The position numbers and the translations under genes were made by a program. From NCBI RefSeq assembly GCF_028606985.1, contig NZ_CP117416.1, positions 1,836,001 to 1,900,000 on the forward strand: DNA of 64,000 nucleotides, given 5' to 3'. Source of the DNA: Paenibacillus kyungheensis. GTDB lineage: Bacteria > Bacillota > Bacilli > Paenibacillales > Paenibacillaceae. Shown here piece by piece: positions 2,527-55,547 of the stretch (its first letter is position 1; each line of letters starts with the position of its first letter). Below the pieces are notes generated by a model. The model saw only the letters and a program-made list of their open reading frames with translations. It was not told where the DNA came from and ran no database searches.

Positions 2527-3000
2527 ATGGAGATGTTATTTCGTTATAACTGGCAAGTACGTCAAGAATGGTTCGATTGGTGTGAATCATTATCACAACA
2601 GGAACTATTACAACAACGTACAGGCGGAGTCGGTAGTATCTTGTATACGCTCTATCATATTATCGATGTAGAGTATAGCTGGATTAATGATCTGAGAGAT
2701 CAGAACAGCTTGCTTACTGATTTTGCAGATTATCAGACGGTAGAACGATTACGTGCATTGTCGTCTCAATTGCATGTAGAAGTAGGCGCTTATGTAAAAG
2801 CATGGACACCTGAGCAAGAAACCAAAATTTTGCATAATGTACGTAAAGATGGCTCTACAGAACAATTAACGTATGGAGAAGTGATGCGTCATGTGATTGC
2901 ACACGAGATTCATCATGTCGGGCAGTTATCGGTATGGGCGCGAGAAGTGGGACGTGAGCCAGTCAGTGCCAATCTTATTCGTAGAGGATTACAACGATAA
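2527..3000 (+). CDS. DinB family protein
   Basis: A 157-residue soluble protein of the DinB/YfiT four-helix-bundle superfamily. Visible hallmarks are the N-terminal aromatic helix (F-R-Y-N-W), the L-Y-H-I-I-D-V-E-Y-S-W helix with a likely metal-ligand His, and the late A-H-E-I-H-H-V-G-Q-L helix with two or three more His. Members often bind a divalent metal; many act as thiol-dependent transferases, but the reaction cannot be called here. ATG 2527 follows AAAGGAGGG. It probably forms a unit with the small upstream gene. Confidence 0.8.
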   Translation: MEMLFRYNWQVRQEWFDWCESLSQQELLQQRTGGVGSILYTLYHIIDVEYSWINDLRDQNSLLTDFADYQTVERLRALSSQLHVEVGAYVKAWTPEQETKILHNVRKDGSTEQLTYGEVMRHVIAHEIHHVGQLSVWAREVGREPVSANLIRRGLQR

Positions 3001-3091
3001 GGATGATGTGAACAGAACTTTTACTTTTGTATGACGTGAATACTAGATAGCTTGTGCAATGGGGAATCAGGCTAGCTTGTAGAGGGGGACG

Positions 3092-3712
3092 ATGATGTTG
3101 CTTAAAAAGAAGATGATCGAAACGGATTCGTATTGGGGGACAAAATGCAGACATATACATATGACACAAGGTTCCTCTACACTAATCATTTTATTTCCGG
3201 GAAAAAGTTATTCTTGTGAACGTTCTTTACTGTATTATGCAGCCCAAAGTGCTTTAGAAAAAGGGCATGATGTATTGCAATTAGAATACGGGTATCAAGC
3301 GGCTCGAACCGAACTGGAATCAGATCAACGAGATATTTTGATTAAAGAATGTACAGATGTGATTAGACAGTTAAGTGCATTTGGATATACCAACTACATC
3401 AGTATTAGCAAAAGTCTCGGTACATTGATAGCAGGAGGCGTATTTGAACAATACAAATCATTGCCGGTACGTCATATTTTTTTAACGCCTTTAGATCAGA
3501 CTGTACCGTATATTATTCAATCTCAGGGATTGTTAATCTATGGCACCAATGATCCTATGTTCAGTCATCTTAGTCAGGACAAAATAAACCATTTACCTTA
3601 TATAGACACCGTTGTTTTTCCTGACGCGAATCATTTGCTAGAAGCACCAAGTATTGATCAATCTTTGCAATTTCTGAAGCAAGTAGTGATACACTATAAC
3701 GAATTTTTCTAA
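3092..3712 (+). CDS. Small alpha/beta hydrolase
   Basis: A 206-residue cytosolic alpha/beta-hydrolase-type protein. The nucleophile elbow reads S-I-S-K-S-L-G-T, a variant of G-x-S-x-G. A Y-G-T-N-D-P segment offers the acid and D-A-N-H-L-L-E the catalytic His. An oxyanion-type F-P-G motif is near residue 33. Members of this group are uncharacterised esterase-like proteins. Two adjacent ATGs (3092, 3095) follow AGAGGGGG. A terminator at 3768-3823 closes the gene. No partner genes suggest a substrate. Confidence 0.7.
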   Translation: MMLLKKKMIETDSYWGTKCRHIHMTQGSSTLIILFPGKSYSCERSLLYYAAQSALEKGHDVLQLEYGYQAARTELESDQRDILIKECTDVIRQLSAFGYTNYISISKSLGTLIAGGVFEQYKSLPVRHIFLTPLDQTVPYIIQSQGLLIYGTNDPMFSHLSQDKINHLPYIDTVVFPDANHLLEAPSIDQSLQFLKQVVIHYNEFF

Positions 3713-3767
3713 ATATTCTATTGTTTTATTGTGGTTGCAACTCTTTATCATGCGATAAAGAAATAAG

Positions 3768-3823
3768 CCTGCTACATTCTCATAGATGCACAGTCATCTT
3801 AAAGGGAACTAGCAGGTTTTTTT
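3768..3823 (+). terminator. Rho-independent terminator
   Basis: CCTGCTA pairs with TAGCAGG, followed by seven T. The loop is long (35 bases), so strength is uncertain. Confidence 0.6.
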
Positions 3824-3909
3824 GTATGTATTTGGATATGTATACAGCGAAATCTAAAAATATGCTCATTATAGCGTCACAATAGACTAACTTATGTTAT
3901 ATTTATAAA

Positions 3910-3924
3910 TGATAATTATTCTCA
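3910..3924 (+). promoter_or_regulatory. Fur box of iron-binding lipoprotein gene
   Basis: TGATAATTATTCTCA matches the 7-1-7 Fur inverted repeat TGATAATNATTATCA at 14 of 15 positions. It lies 21 bases before the start of an iron-siderophore-type binding protein, the expected place for iron repression. Confidence 0.8.
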
Positions 3925-3945
3925 ATTAACATAAGGAGTGAAAAA

Positions 3946-4974
3946 ATGAAACAATTATCTTGGGTTAAAATGTTACCTTTGTTTGTGATCATGCTATGTG
4001 TAATCATCACAGGGTGTGGAGCGAAGACAGGTACATCACAATCATCAGCTACATCCAATCAACAAGCTGACTCTGCACAGACAGTATCAGTAGAACATGT
4101 ATTTGGTACAACAGCAATTCCGGTACATCCGAAGCGAATTGCTTCATACAATTTGGAAGATATCTTACTTTCACTTCAAGCCCCATTAGTATTAGGTGTA
4201 TCTGTAGGTGAAAACTATTATCTGGAAGATCGCTTGAAAGCTCAAAATGCCTCTATTCTAAATATGGATAGTGGATTAGCTAATTTAGAAGCTTTTGCAG
4301 AAGCACAACCCGATCTGATTGTAGCCAGTGCAACGATTGATCGAACTACATATGATCAGTTAAGCTTAATTGCTCCTACGATTGTGTATGATCGTGAAGA
4401 TTGGAAAACATCTATTGTCAAAATAGGTAAAGCATTAGATTTGGAAGATCAAGCGCAACAAGTCATAGCAGATCATAATACTCAGGTTCAACAAGCCAAA
4501 AAAGCAATAACAACAGCCGTAGGTTCAAAAGCTACGATTGCTTTTGTGCGCACGACTAGCAAGGATATTCGCCTGTATCTGCCAGGATATAAAGATCGAG
4601 AAGGTAAAGAGTTGCCAGGTTATGCAGGGATGTTATACAACGATCTAGGGCTACTGCCTATGCCTCTTGTCTCTCAATTACACACCGAGAATCCTGATAA
4701 GCAAAATGTAAATCTGTCCACAGAAGTACTTCCTGAAGTCACTGCTGATTATGTATTTGTCACATCCGGTAGCGCAGGTGGAACAAGTGAAGATTTGCAG
4801 AAAGATCAGTCTCAATTTGCCGAATTACAGAAGTCTCCTATCTGGCAAGCTTTGCCGGCTGTTCAACATAATCATCTATATACTGTAAATGCCAAGTATT
4901 GGATCAGTACAGGCCCTATTGCTGATCAATTCAAAATAAAAGATGCCGTACAACAACTCACTTCATCGTCATAA
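3946..4974 (+). CDS. Iron-siderophore ABC transporter substrate-binding lipoprotein
   Basis: A 342-residue periplasmic-binding-protein-type lipoprotein (FhuD/FecB/YfmC class). The signal peptide ends in lipobox I-T-G-C (C24), followed by a Ser/Thr/Gln-rich linker. The binding fold begins with the typical P-K-R-I-A-S-Y-N-L-E-D segment and contains the E-A-F-A-E-A-Q-P-D-L-I motif of siderophore receptors. It would capture ferric siderophore outside the membrane and pass it to a permease. The Fur box at 3910 supports iron regulation. No permease or ATPase gene is next to it, so it is an orphan receptor using a transporter encoded elsewhere. Confidence 0.88.
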   Translation: MKQLSWVKMLPLFVIMLCVIITGCGAKTGTSQSSATSNQQADSAQTVSVEHVFGTTAIPVHPKRIASYNLEDILLSLQAPLVLGVSVGENYYLEDRLKAQNASILNMDSGLANLEAFAEAQPDLIVASATIDRTTYDQLSLIAPTIVYDREDWKTSIVKIGKALDLEDQAQQVIADHNTQVQQAKKAITTAVGSKATIAFVRTTSKDIRLYLPGYKDREGKELPGYAGMLYNDLGLLPMPLVSQLHTENPDKQNVNLSTEVLPEVTADYVFVTSGSAGGTSEDLQKDQSQFAELQKSPIWQALPAVQHNHLYTVNAKYWISTGPIADQFKIKDAVQQLTSSS

Positions 4975-48551: not shown

Positions 48552-50564
48552 ATGAGTCAAACAACGATACAACCTGAAGATCTGTATAAGTATAACTGGG
48601 TAAGTGATCCTTCGATTCATCCTGATGGAGCTATAGCTTATGTGTACAAAAGTATTGATGCTGAACGTAATCAATACAAAACGCATATCTATTATCAATC
48701 AGCCGATCGAAAGCAAAAGAAAAGAATAACCGATGGGGATTATGATTATGCACCTGACTGGTCGCCTAATGGCAGATATTTAGCATTTATTCGCAAAACA
48801 GATCATAAGCCACAATTGTGGATATTGGATATGATTGATAGCTCGATAAATCAATACAGCAAGCTTGAACGTGGCATAGGATTATTTCGCTGGTCTCCAG
48901 ATGGACGATCTATTGTATTGACAAGTCGAGTGATAGGAGAGCATGAAGTAGAAGCTCATGCACCTGATCGTGGACAAATTGTAGAGCGAACTACACCCAA
49001 AGCAGAAGGTTCTGGATTGTGGAATGGAACGTATCAACATCTGTTTTTACTTGAATTATCGACTCGTCAAATGACACAGATAACAGAGGGCGATTTTGAT
49101 GCTTCATCGCCTGTCTGGTCACCGGATGGAACCGAAATAAGTTACCTTGCTCAAAAAAATGCTTCTATTATATATAGTGATATGGATCTAGTTTTTTATC
49201 AAGATTTGTACACCCTAGAGATCGCTTCTGGACATACAGAAATACAAACCAATCATGATCTTATGATTAGCCAATTTGCATATGCACCGGATGGAAAGTC
49301 ATGGACATGTATAGCTAATGATCGAGAGTATGGCAGTGGTACTCAGAATCAAGTGTACCGAATAGACCGATCAACAAAGCAAATACGTTCGTTAACACCA
49401 CAATCACAGATTCAGTTCGGTAATTTTATACTGAATGATATGAAGACTGCGGCTGCGATACCCGGGCCAATCTATAGTACAGATGGACAATCTATCTATG
49501 TATTAGGAACTTATCAAGGTAGTGTAGATCTATATCGTATCACCGAAGAAGGAGTATGTACTCCCATAACAACCGGTGGAAAAGATATTCATCAGATCGT
49601 CTATGCTCCACAACAAGATATTATGGTAGCGCTGGTTGCTGATGCTACTCATCCATATGAGTTAGTAACATTTCCATTTCTTCCAGTATCCAATCTCCAA
49701 TGGGATGAAGTAAAACCGTTAACAAATACTCATCTATGGCTAGCTGATTACAATGTATCGGTACCCGAATTATTTTGGTATACCAATAAAGAAGGCATCC
49801 ACATTCAAGGGTGGTTGATGAAACCAACAGATATAGTAGATCATGATTCTAAAATTCCTTTGATTTTACAGATTCATGGTGGGCCACATGCGATGTATTC
49901 TGATGCTTATAGTCACGAAATGCAGGCATTAGTATCACAGGGCTATGCGGTGCTGTTGATTAATCCACGTGGTAGCTTCGGTTATGGACAACATTTTGCT
50001 CAAGCTTGTCGTCAAGATTTCGGGGGTGGCGATTATCGTGATCTACTAGAGGCAGTAGATTATATACTGCAACATCATCCTGAATGTAATGACCAACAGT
50101 TAGGTATATGTGGTGGTAGTTATGGCGGACTTATGGTCAATTGGATAATTGCTCATGATGATCGTTTTCGTGTAGCTGTTACACAGCGTTGTATTTCCAA
50201 TTGGATTTCCTTTTATGGAATTAGCGATATTGGTATTTCCTATACAGAAGGGATAGTCGGTGGTAATCCATGGGAAGATACAGAACGGTTATGGTCGCAA
50301 TCGCCACTTGCTCATGTGCAACAGATAGAGACACCACTACTGATTATTCATGGAGAGCAAGATATGCGCTGTCCTATCGAACAAGGAGAACAGTTATATA
50401 CTGCACTCAAACGTCAAAGCAAAGTGACCAAAATGGTTCGTTATCCTGATTCTAATCATATGGTACTCAAAAGCGGTAAGCCTAGCTATCGTGTAGACTT
50501 GTTAACTCATGTGAATGATTGGATCAAGCAATATATAGATAGTCCGCTAGAGGTTCATTTATGA
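48552..50564 (+). CDS. S9 family serine peptidase (prolyl oligopeptidase type)
   Basis: A 670-residue cytosolic S9C-type peptidase. Residues 1-400 form a beta-propeller with W-S-P-D-G repeats (P-D-W-S-P-N-G-R, F-R-W-S-P-D-G-R, P-V-W-S-P-D-G-T). Residues 410-670 are an alpha/beta hydrolase: nucleophile G-G-S-Y-G-G, Asp in G-E-Q-D-M-R-C-P, His in D-S-N-H-M-V. Likely a dipeptidyl/acylaminoacyl peptidase acting on imported peptides. AAAGGAGCC precedes ATG 48552. Its stop overlaps the next start (ATGA). Confidence 0.92.
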   Translation: MSQTTIQPEDLYKYNWVSDPSIHPDGAIAYVYKSIDAERNQYKTHIYYQSADRKQKKRITDGDYDYAPDWSPNGRYLAFIRKTDHKPQLWILDMIDSSINQYSKLERGIGLFRWSPDGRSIVLTSRVIGEHEVEAHAPDRGQIVERTTPKAEGSGLWNGTYQHLFLLELSTRQMTQITEGDFDASSPVWSPDGTEISYLAQKNASIIYSDMDLVFYQDLYTLEIASGHTEIQTNHDLMISQFAYAPDGKSWTCIANDREYGSGTQNQVYRIDRSTKQIRSLTPQSQIQFGNFILNDMKTAAAIPGPIYSTDGQSIYVLGTYQGSVDLYRITEEGVCTPITTGGKDIHQIVYAPQQDIMVALVADATHPYELVTFPFLPVSNLQWDEVKPLTNTHLWLADYNVSVPELFWYTNKEGIHIQGWLMKPTDIVDHDSKIPLILQIHGGPHAMYSDAYSHEMQALVSQGYAVLLINPRGSFGYGQHFAQACRQDFGGGDYRDLLEAVDYILQHHPECNDQQLGICGGSYGGLMVNWIIAHDDRFRVAVTQRCISNWISFYGISDIGISYTEGIVGGNPWEDTERLWSQSPLAHVQQIETPLLIIHGEQDMRCPIEQGEQLYTALKRQSKVTKMVRYPDSNHMVLKSGKPSYRVDLLTHVNDWIKQYIDSPLEVHL

Positions 50565-51028
50565 CAGAACCATTTTTGGAAAAAGTGAAGCTATCGTTAC
50601 CTGTAGGATTGTGGATTGAGAACTGTATGAGTAGTGGATTAGATCCAGCAACCATTATCGCTTATATCCATAACAAAGATTGGACACCTTTATTGTCAAA
50701 TGTAGCTGATCCGCAAATGGATATGTTAGATCGTCTACAGATTGCGACAGATATGAATGATCCATGGGAACAAGCGATACTTGAAGGATACAGGTTCAAG
50801 TTTATTCATATCGGTGGTGTCAAACGACTTTTATACTTCCGATATCAACTGCAAGAACATCGGGATTACCAACAAAACGGAAATCAATTATCAGGATTGT
50901 TATTGCATTCAGACATGATATCGAATATAAACGAAAAAATCGGTATTCAGTGGGAAATTGTGACAGATACGCAAACGCTATCAAATACGCAGACAATGCA
51001 AATACGTTTAAAAAACGAAAGCTGTTGA
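50561..51028 (+). CDS. Unknown protein coupled to S9 peptidase gene, 155 aa
   Basis: Not recognised. A 155-residue soluble protein beginning M-T-E-P-F-L-E-K-V with mixed alpha/beta character, a L-Y-F-R-Y-Q-L core strand and a hydrophilic, Thr/Gln-rich C-terminus. Its ATG overlaps the S9 peptidase stop in an ATGA arrangement, so it is translated with the peptidase. The stop codon sits in the loop of the operon terminator. It may be an accessory of the peptide-utilisation operon; no motif supports a specific role. Confidence 0.6.
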   Translation: MTEPFLEKVKLSLPVGLWIENCMSSGLDPATIIAYIHNKDWTPLLSNVADPQMDMLDRLQIATDMNDPWEQAILEGYRFKFIHIGGVKRLLYFRYQLQEHRDYQQNGNQLSGLLLHSDMISNINEKIGIQWEIVTDTQTLSNTQTMQIRLKNESC

Positions 51029-51044
51029 TTCATGACAGCTTTTT
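51018..51044 (+). terminator. Rho-independent terminator
   Basis: AAAGCTGT pairs with ACAGCTTT, followed by a T-run; overlaps the end of the preceding gene. Confidence 0.78.
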
Positions 51045-51263
51045 CTGTTTTTTTACATTAATATAGATATGAAAAGTGGGTTTTATATGCGAAATGCAAC
51101 CTATAGAACTTGCTTAATTCGTCAATCTATGGGAAAATTTCACCAAGGTATACATTCTGGATATAAATGATAAGCTGAATAATCAGCAGTTATAAACACA
51201 TCTTACGATCTGTGCAAGCGAATTGATCCTCGTAAGGTCTTTATGACAAGGAGGTCAGGCGCG

Positions 51264-52358
51264 ATGGCACTACAACGAGAAGAAACAGTAGGACAACAAC
51301 TCATATCGCAAGCAGATCGATTTGCAGAAAAAGTAACACAAATGCAGTATCTTCAGCAGCCAGATTTAATGCAACGATTTGGATCTAATGGCAGAATAAG
51401 AACCAAGCAAGATTCTTTATATACGATTAGCTATTTAGCTGAAAGTGTACTGATGAAGAGTCCAAGTTTGTTTATGAATTATATTTCGTGGCTCAAAGTA
51501 CTGTTAAATGGATATCGAGTATCCGAACAAGATTTATTAGTAAATTTACATGCGATCAAAAAAGCGCTTCAAAAAAATTTTGATCATCCCCACAAATCCA
51601 ATGTGATTGATTATCTGGATATGGGGATACATCATGTTCAAACCAGTGAATCGCAAACATCGTATATGTTGGATACCTTGTTATTGGGAAAAGAAGCAAA
51701 ACAATACCTAGATTGTTTGCTACGTACAGAACGCAAAGAGGCCTACGCGCTTATCGTACATCTTCTTGAAAACGATACTCCTATCAAAGATATATACATT
51801 CATATATTCCAGACTGTACAATACGAGATCGGTCGGTTATGGCAAATTGGCGATATTAATATTGCTCAAGAACATTTCTGTACAGCGGCAACACAAAGTA
51901 TCATTTCACGTCTGTATCCATATTGGATAAGCGCAGGTGAGGAACGATATCGCTTAGTTGCGGCCTGTGTCGGAGAAGAACAACATGAGATCGGGATTCG
52001 AATGTTGGCTGATTTTTTTGAAATGGAAGGCTGGAACACCTATTATTTAGGTGCTAATGTTCCAGATCACAGTCTTTTACAATCCATTGTGCATCATCAG
52101 GCGGATGTAATTGCTATTTCTGCAACAATGACCTTTCACGTTCATTTAGTGCAAGACTTAATTGAAAAAATTCGCGCTGAAGAATCAACCAGAGATGTCA
52201 AAATCATTGTCGGCGGATTGCCGTTTAATATTGACAGGGAACTGTGGAAGCGAGTTGGGGCAGATGGTTTTGCACCTGATGCAAATGAAGCTGTTGAAAT
52301 AGCGACAAGCTTAGTAGCCCTGAATGAGTCAGGCAGCCAGCCCTCGGTAAAAGGTTGA
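51264..52358 (+). CDS. Cobalamin-binding sensor protein with CarH-type light-sensing motifs
   Basis: A 364-residue soluble protein. Residues 1-150 are an all-helical N-terminal domain I do not recognise. Residues 155-222 form a B12-binding-2 helical cap with W193-x9-E203-H204, the motif that contacts adenosylcobalamin in CarH/LitR photoreceptors. Residues 228-352 are a Rossmann B12 domain with E239-x-H241-x-x-G244 (His241 the expected cobalt ligand), S-A-T-M-T and V-G-G plus G-A-D-G-F-A-P-D motifs. No DNA-binding domain. ATG 51264 follows AAGGAGGT. The adjacent hybrid kinase lacks its own sensor, so this protein is its probable input. Confidence 0.82.
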   Translation: MALQREETVGQQLISQADRFAEKVTQMQYLQQPDLMQRFGSNGRIRTKQDSLYTISYLAESVLMKSPSLFMNYISWLKVLLNGYRVSEQDLLVNLHAIKKALQKNFDHPHKSNVIDYLDMGIHHVQTSESQTSYMLDTLLLGKEAKQYLDCLLRTERKEAYALIVHLLENDTPIKDIYIHIFQTVQYEIGRLWQIGDINIAQEHFCTAATQSIISRLYPYWISAGEERYRLVAACVGEEQHEIGIRMLADFFEMEGWNTYYLGANVPDHSLLQSIVHHQADVIAISATMTFHVHLVQDLIEKIRAEESTRDVKIIVGGLPFNIDRELWKRVGADGFAPDANEAVEIATSLVALNESGSQPSVKG

Positions 52359-52386
52359 ATAGCCTTTAGAAGGGAAGATGAACGCA

Positions 52387-54114
52387 ATGACGAATGCTGA
52401 ACAAGAAATCACTATTTTGCGTAAAACGATAGAAGATCTTTCCCATAAGATGATTAAAGGCAAGTATCAAGAAGAGCAAATACTAGCTGAATTTTCAGCA
52501 ATGAATAATGAAATGGTTACGCTACAACGTCAGTTAGCCAAAACCAATGCTGAGTTGAATGCGGCAAAAGAAGAAGCTATCCATGCCAATCAAGCACGTG
52601 CTCGCTTTTTGGCAATTATGACTCATGAAATACGTACACCGATGAATGGAATGATCGGTATGTCCGAAATTTTAATGAGTTCTGGATTATCGCAAGAGCA
52701 ACAACAGTCTGTGATGTTAATTCAAGAGTCGGCTGAACTATTGCTCAGTATGATTAACAATATGCTGGACCTTTCCAAAATGGAAGCCGGCAAAATGAGA
52801 CTGCAAGAAGAACCTATTGATTTGCGATTATTATTGGATCATATTATTCGGTTAAGTGAACCCAAAGCGCAAAAAAATGAGAATGTGATTTCGGCTTTTA
52901 TTGATTACCGGGTAGAAAATGAATTGGTGGGCGATGGCGGCAGAATCAGACAAATTTTGCTTAATCTGCTCAGTAATGCTAATAAATTTACCAAACAAGG
53001 AAAGATCGAAGTCAGTATACAATTGAAACACAACAGTGCAAATTTACAGGTTCTTCACATCGAAGTTACAGATACAGGAATCGGCATCTCTGAAGAAAAT
53101 CAAAAAAATATGTTTCAGCCTTATGCACAAGCTGATCAACCTGGCAAAAACGATGTAGAAGGAACGGGGCTGGGGCTCTCCATTTGTAAGTCATTTGTAG
53201 AGCTGATGGAAGGAACGATTGATTTGAAAAGTGAAGAAAATAAAGGATCAACTTTTTGGTTCGATATTCCGCTCAAAAAAGTTCAAGCTTCTTCGGACAC
53301 TCAAGCGTTAATCCATACGAGTCTCGATGAACAGCAGATCGATCATCATCAACTTCCTTCTCATTTGCATCATAAACAGACGGATAAAGCTATATTAATT
53401 GTAGAAGATAATCCTATTAATCGTCAGGTGATTCAACTACAACTGAAAAAGATGGGAATGGAACACGTCCATACAGTCAGCAACGGACAAGAAGCCATCT
53501 CCAAATATCTTGGACAAACCTATCATTTAATTTTGATGGATAACCGTATGCCTATTATGGATGGTCTGCAAGCTACTCACAAAATTCGTGAATTAGAAAC
53601 AGCAGAGATGCGCTCACCAGTACCGATTATTGCTTTGACAGGTAATACCAGTCAGGAAGATCGGCAGAAATGTCTGGATGCAGGGATGAATGATATTTTG
53701 ACCAAGCCGGTTAATCTTGAAAGTCTAACTGTGATGATGCGTAAATGGCTTCCAGATATCGTTCATGAAAAAGCATTGGATATGAGTGTAATTCAAGAAA
53801 TACTGGAATTAAATGATGATGGTGATCCAGAAGTATTGCGGACGCTCATCGAAATGTACAAAAGTGAGACACCTACCAAGCTAGAACGATTAAAAAAGTT
53901 AGTGCTCCGTAAAGATGCAGCAGCATTGTCGGAAGCGGCACACGAACTCAAATCAGGTAGCTTGAGTATAGGGATTCAATATATGGCGCAATTGTTGCAT
54001 CAGATTGAGACATTGGCTAAAGAAGATGATTTGCGGGGAGTTCAAGAACTCGTCCAGTTGCTAGCTCCTGCTTATGAAAAAGCTTGTCGGGAACTAGAAT
54101 ATTTAGTCAAATAA
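52387..54114 (+). CDS. Cytosolic hybrid histidine kinase (HisKA-HATPase-REC-HPt)
   Basis: A 575-residue kinase with no membrane segment and no sensor domain. A coiled coil (1-70) leads to HisKA with the phospho-His in M-T-H80-E-I-R-T-P. HATPase motifs follow ([22 protein letters not shown]). A receiver has I-V-E-D-N and the phospho-Asp in L-I-L-M-D-N-R-M-P, and a C-terminal HPt domain has A-A-H-E-L-K-S-G-S. Start is ATG 52387 (GAAGGGA 11 bases upstream); ATG 52378 is closer than usual. It lies 28 bases after the B12 sensor gene. Output partner not in the window. Confidence 0.9.
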
Positions 54115-54127
54115 AAAGAATGATCAG

Positions 54128-54156
54128 GGAATCTGCACTTTGCAGGTTCCTTTTTT
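54128..54156 (+). terminator. Rho-independent terminator
   Basis: GGAA-CTGCA pairs with TGCAG-TTCC around a three-base loop, followed by six T. Confidence 0.87.
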
Positions 54157-54248
54157 GTATATATCCATAAATAAATGAGCGCTCCCCTTTATAATATGTG
54201 ATTACTTGGGTAATGGTAGATATACCAATTGATGATAAGGGGAGATAC

Positions 54249-55013
54249 ATGATGTGCGCAGCATTTGACACAGCTAGAGAATCAGAATCCGATTACCACG
54301 AAAAGTTTTATGAAGAGAATAAATTGTTTGAACCTGGAAGTTGGATGGCAGGGCCTACACCGATTGTGATGGAGTTGTTAGAACGTCTGCAAAAATATAC
54401 ACCTGCACCAAAAGTATTGGATATGGCTTGTGGAGTAGGCAGGCATACGATTCCAGTTGCTCAACAATTAACTGAAGGCGGTGTCGTGGTAGGGGTCGAT
54501 TTGCTAGATTCTGCGATTGAGCAATTGCAGAAATATGCAGAAGAATACAATGTGGCTGACCGGATCGAAGCGGTTACCAGCGATGTGGAAAGTTACAATA
54601 TTGAACCGGATGCTTACGATTATATGATTGCTACCGGATGCTTAGAGCATGTTTCTTCCCAAGATTCATTGCAAAAAGTAATCAACAGCATGCAAGCAGG
54701 GACTCGTACAGGTGGTATTCATCTGATCTCTATGACTTCTTCGGTTCAACAAGTGGATCAAAAGACGCAAGAAGCTGAAGAAGGCAATATCGAGCTGAAC
54801 TTGACCACAGAACAATTGTTAGAACTTTTAAATGAATATTATGAAGGTTGGAATATTATCGAGCGCAAAGCAGTTGCTCAAGCGATCGAAGAAACCAAAG
54901 ATGGCAAAGAGATCGAACTACAAGGCAATTGGATCACATTTGCAGCTTGTAAAGAAGATCCACAGCCTCATCCTGAAGTGTTGCAACAAGTACAGTCATC
55001 TACAGACAAGTAA
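54249..55013 (+). CDS. SAM-dependent methyltransferase
   Basis: A 254-residue class I methyltransferase. Motif I is V-L-D-M-A-C-G-V-G-R-H-T, the acidic end of strand 2 is V-V-G-V-D-L-L-D, and motif IV is Y-D-Y-M-I-A-T-G-C-L-E-H. It resembles TehB/UbiE-like methyltransferases of unknown substrate. AAGGGGAG precedes two ATGs (54249, 54252). The open frame upstream to 54198 lacks a site. Single gene; substrate cannot be inferred. Confidence 0.85.
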   Translation: MMCAAFDTARESESDYHEKFYEENKLFEPGSWMAGPTPIVMELLERLQKYTPAPKVLDMACGVGRHTIPVAQQLTEGGVVVGVDLLDSAIEQLQKYAEEYNVADRIEAVTSDVESYNIEPDAYDYMIATGCLEHVSSQDSLQKVINSMQAGTRTGGIHLISMTSSVQQVDQKTQEAEEGNIELNLTTEQLLELLNEYYEGWNIIERKAVAQAIEETKDGKEIELQGNWITFAACKEDPQPHPEVLQQVQSSTDK

Positions 55014-55109
55014 GCTATAAGCATGATAAACATATTGTACTGTGTAACTGTTTGACACATCATGTAAAATAGAGAAGTAGTCAAGCAAACCGTACAGGAG
55101 GAATACAGT

Positions 55110-55547
55110 GTGTTAGAACGGATCGATCAAAAATTAGAGCAACCCCAATTACAGGAATTATTATCATATGCCGTATTTCCTGATCCACAAGTATTGGAGG
55201 CTGTTATTCAACAGTATCATACACAGGATCATATGCATTTATATGGATATCAAGAAGACGGCGCATGGATTGGTGTAATCGGCTGTGTAGAAGAAGCAGA
55301 TACACCAGACGTTTTACGTATCCGTCATTTAGCAATTGCTCCGAATGAACGTGGTAAAGGGTATGGACGTGGTATTTTGTTAGAATTGATAGAAACTGCT
55401 CAACCTTCTGTTTTGCTTGCTGAAGCAGATGATGAAGGAGCAGAATTTTATCGCAATATCGGCTTTACTGTTATCGGAAATGGAGAGCTAAATGCAGCTT
55501 CTGAACGTTACCTGTGCCGTTATGAAGTAGAAGAGGAAGAAGAATAA
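55110..55547 (+). CDS. GNAT family N-acetyltransferase
   Basis: A 145-residue GNAT protein. The acetyl-CoA loop is the R/Q-x-x-G-x-G/A motif N-E-R-G-K-G-Y-G-R-G, after the strand I-R-H-L-A-I-A. The C-terminal F-Y-R-N-I-G-F-T-V-I-G motif is typical. Substrate unknown. The start is GTG 55110 after AGGAGG. A very acidic tail ends the protein. Followed by a long terminator-like hairpin. Confidence 0.85.
   Translation: MLERIDQKLEQPQLQELLSYAVFPDPQVLEAVIQQYHTQDHMHLYGYQEDGAWIGVIGCVEEADTPDVLRIRHLAIAPNERGKGYGRGILLELIETAQPSVLLAEADDEGAEFYRNIGFTVIGNGELNAASERYLCRYEVEEEEE

Follow-up and report, generated by a model that had tools for sequence, protein, structure and literature searches.

Photocobilins have already been published: SasPcob is a stand-alone protein and AbDPcob is a fusion to a diguanylate cyclase (PDB 8J2W, 8J2X and 8J2Y; PMC10979010). 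They fall into three groups according to the N- or C-terminal place of the adenosylcobalamin (AdoCbl) domain and the presence of an extra output domain, and the function of the stand-alone members was called ‘less clear’ (PMC10979010). Photoglobins are globin-B12 fusions of the BBAG-2 lineage, and the tested members bind biliverdin (PMC10151467). We analysed a 64,000-nucleotide stretch of Paenibacillus kyungheensis DNA (contig NZ_CP117416.1, positions 1,836,001 to 1,900,000; hereafter the window), in which a gene for a sensor sharing the W-x9-EH and E/D-x-H residues of SasPcob and AbDPcob is followed by a gene for a soluble hybrid histidine kinase (Table 1). We consider, with a probability of roughly two in three, that the locus is a two-gene light-signalling unit: a stand-alone globin-B12 photocobilin and an adjacent kinase that reads it in trans.

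A profile of the N-terminal domain of the sensor was compared with the PDB; the biliverdin domain of SasPcob was the top match, followed by phycobiliproteins. The first 150 residues, which the initial annotation had left as an unknown helical domain, are on these matches the phycobiliprotein-fold globin domain of photocobilins. The Pfam phycobilisome family has no match in the window sensor; PF00502 was found in four of the six relatives scanned. Two pocket residues could be placed by alignment with SasPcob (residue numbers of PMC10979010 equal those of the 8J2W chain plus 6, as checked on Trp61, His108 and Trp296): Asp270, which contacts bilin rings A–C, and Trp296, which abuts ring D and the corrin (PMC10979010), correspond to Asp50 and Trp76. 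Only four columns (G43, D50, Y73 and W76) are invariant in an alignment of 30 globin domains (A3), and Asp50 and Trp76 are likewise invariant (37/37) in alignment A1, which consists of the window sensor and 36 of 120 listed homologs. In AbDPcob, which binds biliverdin poorly, a His occupies the Asp270-equivalent position (PMC10979010). The initial annotation proposed that the N-terminal domain may contact the kinase; in SasPcob crystals the globin-equivalent domain packs on the B12 module (PMC10979010). With this bilin-binding globin of photocobilins at its N-terminus, the sensor is predicted to carry a second chromophore. The window sensor has Thr47 in place of the attachment Cys, and a covalent bilin link is not expected from its sequence. 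A Cys does occur at the CXRD column in 10 of the 30 A3 domains (L070, L072, L073, L075, L077, L064, L078, L079, L082 and L083); in these lineages it would permit covalent attachment of the bilin, unlike in the described photocobilins.

The second half of the protein is a CarH-like B12 module made of a four-helix cap and a Rossmann domain. The initial annotation had listed W193, E203, H204, E239, H241 and G244 as adenosylcobalamin photoreceptor residues, and all six are present (numbering is counted from the start codon at 51264). All 37 sequences of A1 agree at five of these; the sixth, position 239, is occupied by E in 33 sequences and by D in 4. The claim that the sensor has no DNA-binding domain was also borne out, as the Pfam matches are to B12-binding_2 and B12-binding and none is to a DNA-binding family, the MerR-type domain that is a trait of CarH repressors included. 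The initial reading is supported in part: the module is of the B12-photoreceptor type and lacks a DNA-binding domain, whereas the CarH framing is not supported, given the extra globin domain and Gln194. The latter replaces the second His of the bis-His light state of CarH (His132), and a Gln is found there in SasPcob too (PMC11796333). CarH minus its DNA-binding domain was therefore rejected as an identity on the grounds of the globin domain, Gln194 and an NCBIfam CarH score of 42.4 bits against a cut-off of 400. Because the globin domain matches SasPcob, with Asp50 and Trp76 aligned, the sequence argues strongly for a photocobilin of globin-B12 order, and such a protein is likely to bind both AdoCbl and a bilin.

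Both reading frames are open over the coordinates first annotated, and the domain order HisKA-HATPase-REC-HPt proposed for the kinase is recovered by Pfam (HisKA, HATPase_c, Response_reg and Hpt), with His83, Asp388 and His522 at the expected motifs and the HATPase boxes present. Maximal 19-residue mean hydropathy is 1.39 in the sensor and 1.08 in the kinase, values that suggest no membrane helix in either protein; together with Pfam, the latter value agrees with the view that the kinase has neither a membrane anchor nor a recognisable sensor domain. In an alignment of 15 kinases (A2), the N43-N-E45 ... Q50-R51 motif of its N-terminal helix recurs in partner kinases of other phyla.

The association of the two genes was analysed among 80 named loci: 61 of Paenibacillus type (Paenibacillus, Saccharibacillus and one record labelled Neobacillus mesonae) and 19 from other taxa. 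The initial annotation had asked for conservation of the pair across genomes, and this was found: a kinase gene lies directly 3' of the sensor gene in 60 of the 61 Paenibacillus-type loci, the sole exception being L081, in which the sensor ORF (open reading frame) is shortened. Homologs of the five genes upstream of the pair in the window were seen in just 1–2 of the 61. In the other taxa, 10 of 19 loci have a kinase with similarity to the window kinase at a distance of at most 700 bases, and in five more (L064, L065, L067, L074 and L068, the kinase of the last being a near twin of that of L067) a kinase is the next or nearly the next gene. Sensor, PAS and HATPase domains are fused in a single ORF in L077; the neighbour is a GGDEF protein in L072 and a protein of 164–171 amino acids with no Pfam match in L082 and L083. 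A control on adjacent genes, which covered 77 of the 80 named loci, found a kinase immediately downstream of the sensor in 62 of 77 cases and immediately upstream in 2 of 77, and 7 of 766 other genes were kinases. An even sample of 245 genomes of the family, several records of which overlap with the named loci, contains the sensor in 56; besides the window genome, the kinase adjoins it in 54 of 55, and the sole exception (G114) has two internal stops in the sensor match.

The sensor family is not confined to bacteria: L074 (Methanohalophilus euhalobius) has an archaeal sensor followed by a gene for a PAS-HATPase kinase. Matches occur in 11 of 72,556 plasmid records, mostly from Azospirillum; the one plasmid inspected has a histidine kinase gene downstream and no match there to the PAS-domain profile described below. 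Among viral contigs there were 41 pattern matches, with no relative among them.

Outside the lineage of the window, the partner proteins usually have an N-terminal domain, some 120 residues long, with no Pfam name. Its predicted model (predicted local distance difference test 87.2; predicted template modelling score 0.79) matches PAS domains, with a best E-value of 7.4e-5 and template modelling scores of 0.58–0.63. An example is L070:8075-8449, and 23 further named loci have matches. The profile built from 19 such domains (A5) matches 17 of the 19 loci of other taxa and 7 of the 61 Paenibacillus-type loci; note that 14 of those 17 matches and 5 of those 7 were themselves in the profile. It has no match in the window kinase. 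The domain is joined to histidine kinases or to GGDEF, and in L082 and L083 it makes up almost the whole protein. Of 398 Bacillota genomes in an independent sample, 19 matched the sensor query, and 14 loci were taken from the 13 matching genomes outside the family of the window. A kinase is downstream in three of these loci (L175, L176 and L185), each time with a PAS-type domain; a GGDEF protein is the partner in four, with a PAS-type domain in L177 and L178, where it is downstream, and with no match to the profile in L179 and L180; L186 has neither partner, and the six remaining loci match the B12 part of the query alone.

Three side observations were made in this sample. In L186 (Bacilli; 2767-4148, reverse complement), an ABM gene is followed by separate ORFs for the globin and B12 domains, which represents either a split system or a broken gene. 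In L185 (2995-5943), the photocobilin ORF is in two pieces, with a 475-amino acid ORF that resembles an intron-type maturase by eye between them, and the kinase follows. In L181, L183 and L188, the N-termini of B12-module proteins resemble, by eye, an XRE-type helix-turn-helix; these are possible CarH analogues using another DNA-binding domain.

Chromophore supply was also analysed. The genome has a PF01126 heme oxygenase gene adjoining that of a phytochrome. In the family sample, heme oxygenase is present in 45 of 56 sensor-bearing and 15 of 189 sensor-less genomes, and among phytochrome-less genomes in 7 of 18 with the sensor and 4 of 169 without it (phylogeny is ignored in both comparisons). 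In 22 of the 80 named loci, which include Paenibacillus and unrelated phyla, a gene for an ABM-domain, heme-monooxygenase-like protein lies directly upstream of the sensor at a distance of 29–235 bases (on the opposite strand in L065; with a weak score, 21 bits, in L070), as it does in 8 of 55 loci of the family sample. No further ABM match was found in those named loci; the profile was built from 15 of the 22 upstream genes and is therefore biased to them. All 10 ABM proteins scanned exceed the PF03992 cut-off, and PDB matches include HmoB, IsdI and 8avh, whereas the NCBIfam heme-degradation models stay below their cut-offs (HmuQ, 44.9 bits against 130). In the active-site alignment Trp and His are kept and the Asn column is Ser; we take N-W-H to be the catalytic set of heme-degrading monooxygenases of the IsdG/HmoB type. 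Such an upstream gene would couple pigment supply to the sensor. The window and L005 (Paenibacillus nuruki, the closest named relative) have no ABM gene directly upstream of the sensor, and eight ABM places are found elsewhere in the window genome. That the upstream ABM gene substitutes for an absent heme oxygenase is not supported: the gene is present in 2 of the 11 genomes that lack PF01126 and in 6 of the 44 that have it.

For the other chromophore, the genome has a PF01923 cob(I)alamin adenosyltransferase gene, as has the Bacillus subtilis control. NrdJ was below the cut-off in the genome (187.3 against 399.95 bits) and EutB was not found; PF02310 occurs in three places, the sensor, L002 (a radical-SAM-like ORF by eye) and L003. 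The idea that AdoCbl is made for the sensor alone was given no weight: B. subtilis shares PF01923, and the search for users of AdoCbl covered NrdJ, EutB and PF02310. A single cobalamin riboswitch was found in the genome, away from the sensor locus.

Domain identity, both sets of pocket residues, the pairing with a kinase and the presence of heme oxygenase and adenosyltransferase genes are computed observations, and from them we infer that the sensor binds its chromophores, reacts to light and touches the kinase, as well as the direction of control and a regulator downstream. In the dark, the sensor would bind AdoCbl, with His241 as the lower ligand and Trp193, Glu203 and His204 holding the adenosyl group, and biliverdin would occupy the globin pocket at Asp50 and Trp76. 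Green light, taken up through B12, or red light, taken up by the bilin and then transferred, would cleave the Co-C bond; the adenosyl group would be expelled, the head-to-tail dimer would loosen, and the light state would be aquo- or hydroxo-cobalamin instead of bis-His. Adenosyl expulsion by light, quaternary change and action in trans are predicted from the analogy to SasPcob and AbDPcob; in vitro, SasPcob and AbPcob each changed how active a separate cyclase was (PMC10979010). The kinase would read the change through its N-terminal helix, and phosphate transfer along His83, Asp388 and His522, in that order, to an unlinked response regulator would be altered. Since the neighbour is a kinase, a phosphorelay is the likely output, and gene pairing makes control of this kinase the most likely use of the sensor. 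The initial annotation's proposal of a light- or B12-controlled phosphorelay is upheld insofar as a soluble hybrid kinase stays beside the sensor (60/61 loci); the control itself we infer.

Several observations weigh against this reading, and some of them speak for other explanations. PF01126 is missing in 11 of the 56 sensor-bearing genomes, nine of which also have no ABM gene directly upstream of the sensor, and the co-occurrence counts carry no correction for phylogeny. The 11 genomes, together with the response of AbDPcob to light despite its poor biliverdin binding (PMC10979010), favour a photoreceptor that uses AdoCbl only, senses just green and blue light and keeps its globin for structure or signalling, with little or no bilin in vivo. 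We regard this as unlikely: AbDPcob has His for the key Asp, whereas Asp50 and Trp76 are invariant in A3 and A1, heme oxygenase co-occurs with the sensor even where phytochrome is lacking, and heme-monooxygenase-like genes stand directly upstream in 22 of 80 loci. The argument from the adenosyltransferase is weak, as the control genome shares it, and of the four elements of the SignatureFinder mining signature for photocobilins (GxxW, EH, GxxH and GxxxP; PMC11796333), a search pattern, three are found in the window sensor. In the GxxH element Glu238 replaces Gly while His241 is retained; this column is Gly in 10 of the 37 sequences of A1, and in CtMerR the Gly serves as a main-chain carbonyl contact. 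A sensor of corrinoid supply or redox state, whose kinase reports AdoCbl availability and not light, appears improbable. CarH-like domains are generally known to respond to the presence of the cofactor too, and the riboswitch means that the genome does regulate by B12, but this riboswitch lies elsewhere, the adenosyl-binding W/EH set is fully retained, and a conserved bilin pocket would have no role in pure B12 sensing.

The choice of the kinase as the target also meets objections. The PAS-fold domain that most partners in other phyla carry is missing from the window kinase, which makes the contact surface hard to place; no response regulator gene directly adjoins the pair among the ORFs of the window; and downstream genes near the pair are shared among the Paenibacillus-type loci (methyltransferase in 21/61, GNAT in 35/61), so that synteny alone may account for some of the pairing. 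A stand-alone photocobilin can moreover act in vitro on a cyclase of another organism (PMC10979010), and the sensor might act on some other protein, its neighbourhood being inherited gene order. This is very improbable in our view, as the upstream flanks recur in 1–2 of the 61 loci against 60 for the kinase, and the pairing recurs in other phyla, once as a fusion. Hardly any credence is due to a corrinoid subunit of a methyltransferase, suggested by several database names (MtbC1-like): MtgC/MtbC give the best NCBIfam rows, yet far under the cut-off (65.5 against 370 bits), for which this identity was rejected, and the globin domain and the residues that bind the adenosyl group are as expected for a photocobilin.

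Besides the two-gene unit read in trans, a wider scheme can be proposed tentatively, at somewhat less than even odds, namely a modular set of light-signalling parts found in many phyla: the photocobilin would read green and red light, the neighbour would carry a PAS-fold receptor domain on an interchangeable kinase or cyclase output, the heme-monooxygenase-like protein whose gene lies upstream in many lineages would make or deliver the bilin, the lineages with Cys47 would bind it covalently, and the window lineage would have shed the PAS domain and coupled the sensor to the kinase helix. If the PAS-fold domain is the docking part, one adaptor would link the same sensor to phosphorelay or to cyclic-di-GMP signalling, and it would be suited to red/green optogenetic design.

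Features of the locus are collected in Table 1. The kinase gene starts 19 bases past the sensor stop codon. The longest sensor ORF begins at 51243; the start at 51264 is preferred because GGAGGT lies 8 bases 5' of it and because the resulting 364 amino acids equal the length of P0001, the closest database protein. Six terminator-like sites were found in 50900-54300 against 1.9 ± 1.4 in shuffled sequences, and with hairpins on both flanks the pair looks like a separate transcription unit. A promoter scan gave 15 sigma-70-like sites against 11.6 ± 3.5 in shuffles, and no promoter is claimed. The DNA 5' of the sensor aligns poorly among five relatives because three of them have the ABM gene there. 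In the window, 50561-51028 encodes a 155-amino acid protein with no Pfam or NCBIfam match and with a homolog in L005 alone among the 61 loci, and methyltransferase and GNAT genes (54198-55547) lie 3' of the kinase.

Table 1. Sequence features of the sensor-kinase locus in window coordinates, and examples of ABM genes in named loci
Feature	Position	Strand	Basis
Terminator-like hairpin 5' of the sensor-kinase pair	51017..51043	+	hairpin scan
Stand-alone photocobilin-type sensor, 364 amino acids, globin domain first, B12 module second	51264..52358	+	ORF, Pfam, profile search
Photoglobin domain with phycobiliprotein fold and a putative pocket for biliverdin, residues 4-130	51273..51653	+	
Thr47, column of the bilin-attaching Cys in CXRD motifs	51402..51404	+	alignment A3
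Asp50, aligned to SasPcob Asp270 (bilin rings A-C contact)	51411..51413	+	profile alignment
Trp76, aligned to SasPcob Trp296 (touches corrin and bilin ring D)	51489..51491	+	profile alignment
B12-binding_2 four-helix cap, W193 (51840), E203-H204 (51870-51875), Gln194 at the CarH His132 position	51699..51914	+	Pfam, residue check
B12-binding Rossmann domain, lower-ligand His241 (51984) in E-x-H-x-x-G	51951..52295	+	Pfam, residue check
Soluble hybrid histidine kinase, 578 amino acids	52378..54114	+	ORF and Pfam
N-terminal helix of the kinase (residues 1-68; resembles a coiled coil by eye), N43-N-E45 ... Q50-R51 motif	52378..52581	+	alignment A2
HisKA, phospho-acceptor His83 (52624)	52594..52791	+	Pfam
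HATPase_c	52930..53277	+	Pfam
Receiver domain, Asp388 (53539)	53392..53736	+	Pfam
HPt domain, His522 (53941)	53845..54066	+	Pfam
Terminator-like hairpin, 12 pairs, 3' end of the sensor-kinase pair	54126..54152	+	hairpin scan
ABM gene examples	L006:6660-6962, L007:6661-6963, L064:6655-6951		

The sensor and its partner combine features of several known systems. The coupling of globin and B12 domains is shared with the photoglobins, which are reportedly associated with signal-transduction domains in the abstract of Schneider et al. 2022 (Comput Struct Biotechnol J 20:261). With CarH and LitR the sensor shares the fold of the B12 module and the adenosyl-binding residues, but it has no DNA-binding domain, a Gln for the bis-His residue and an additional globin domain. 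The fold of its first domain is that of phycobiliproteins and smURFP, from which it differs by the absence of the attachment Cys and by the fusion to a B12 module. The kinase has the HisKA-HATPase-REC-HPt order of TorS/ArcB-type hybrid kinases, but no recognisable sensor domain or membrane helix, and it scores 378 bits against a TorS cut-off of 676.5. No kinase partner of photocobilins was found in the main text of PMC10979010 or in the parts of PMC11796333 and PMC10151467 consulted; the 2022 photoglobin paper may list kinase neighbourhoods. A stand-alone photocobilin with a conserved kinase offers a concrete, testable pair for the function that was called ‘less clear’ (PMC10979010), in which B12-bilin light sensing would feed a phosphorelay in a non-photosynthetic Gram-positive bacterium. 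SasPcob and the window sensor have in common the Gln after the Trp, the Asp270 and Trp296 equivalents in the globin and the absence of an attachment Cys. They differ in that the order of domains, globin first and B12 second, is the reverse of that in SasPcob and AbPcob, although it is not new since a published group has a C-terminal AdoCbl domain. Compared with SasPcob and AbDPcob, the window sensor has Glu for the Gly of GxxH and a separate, neighbouring histidine kinase as its partner, and this conserved neighbour is, within the literature searched, the new element.

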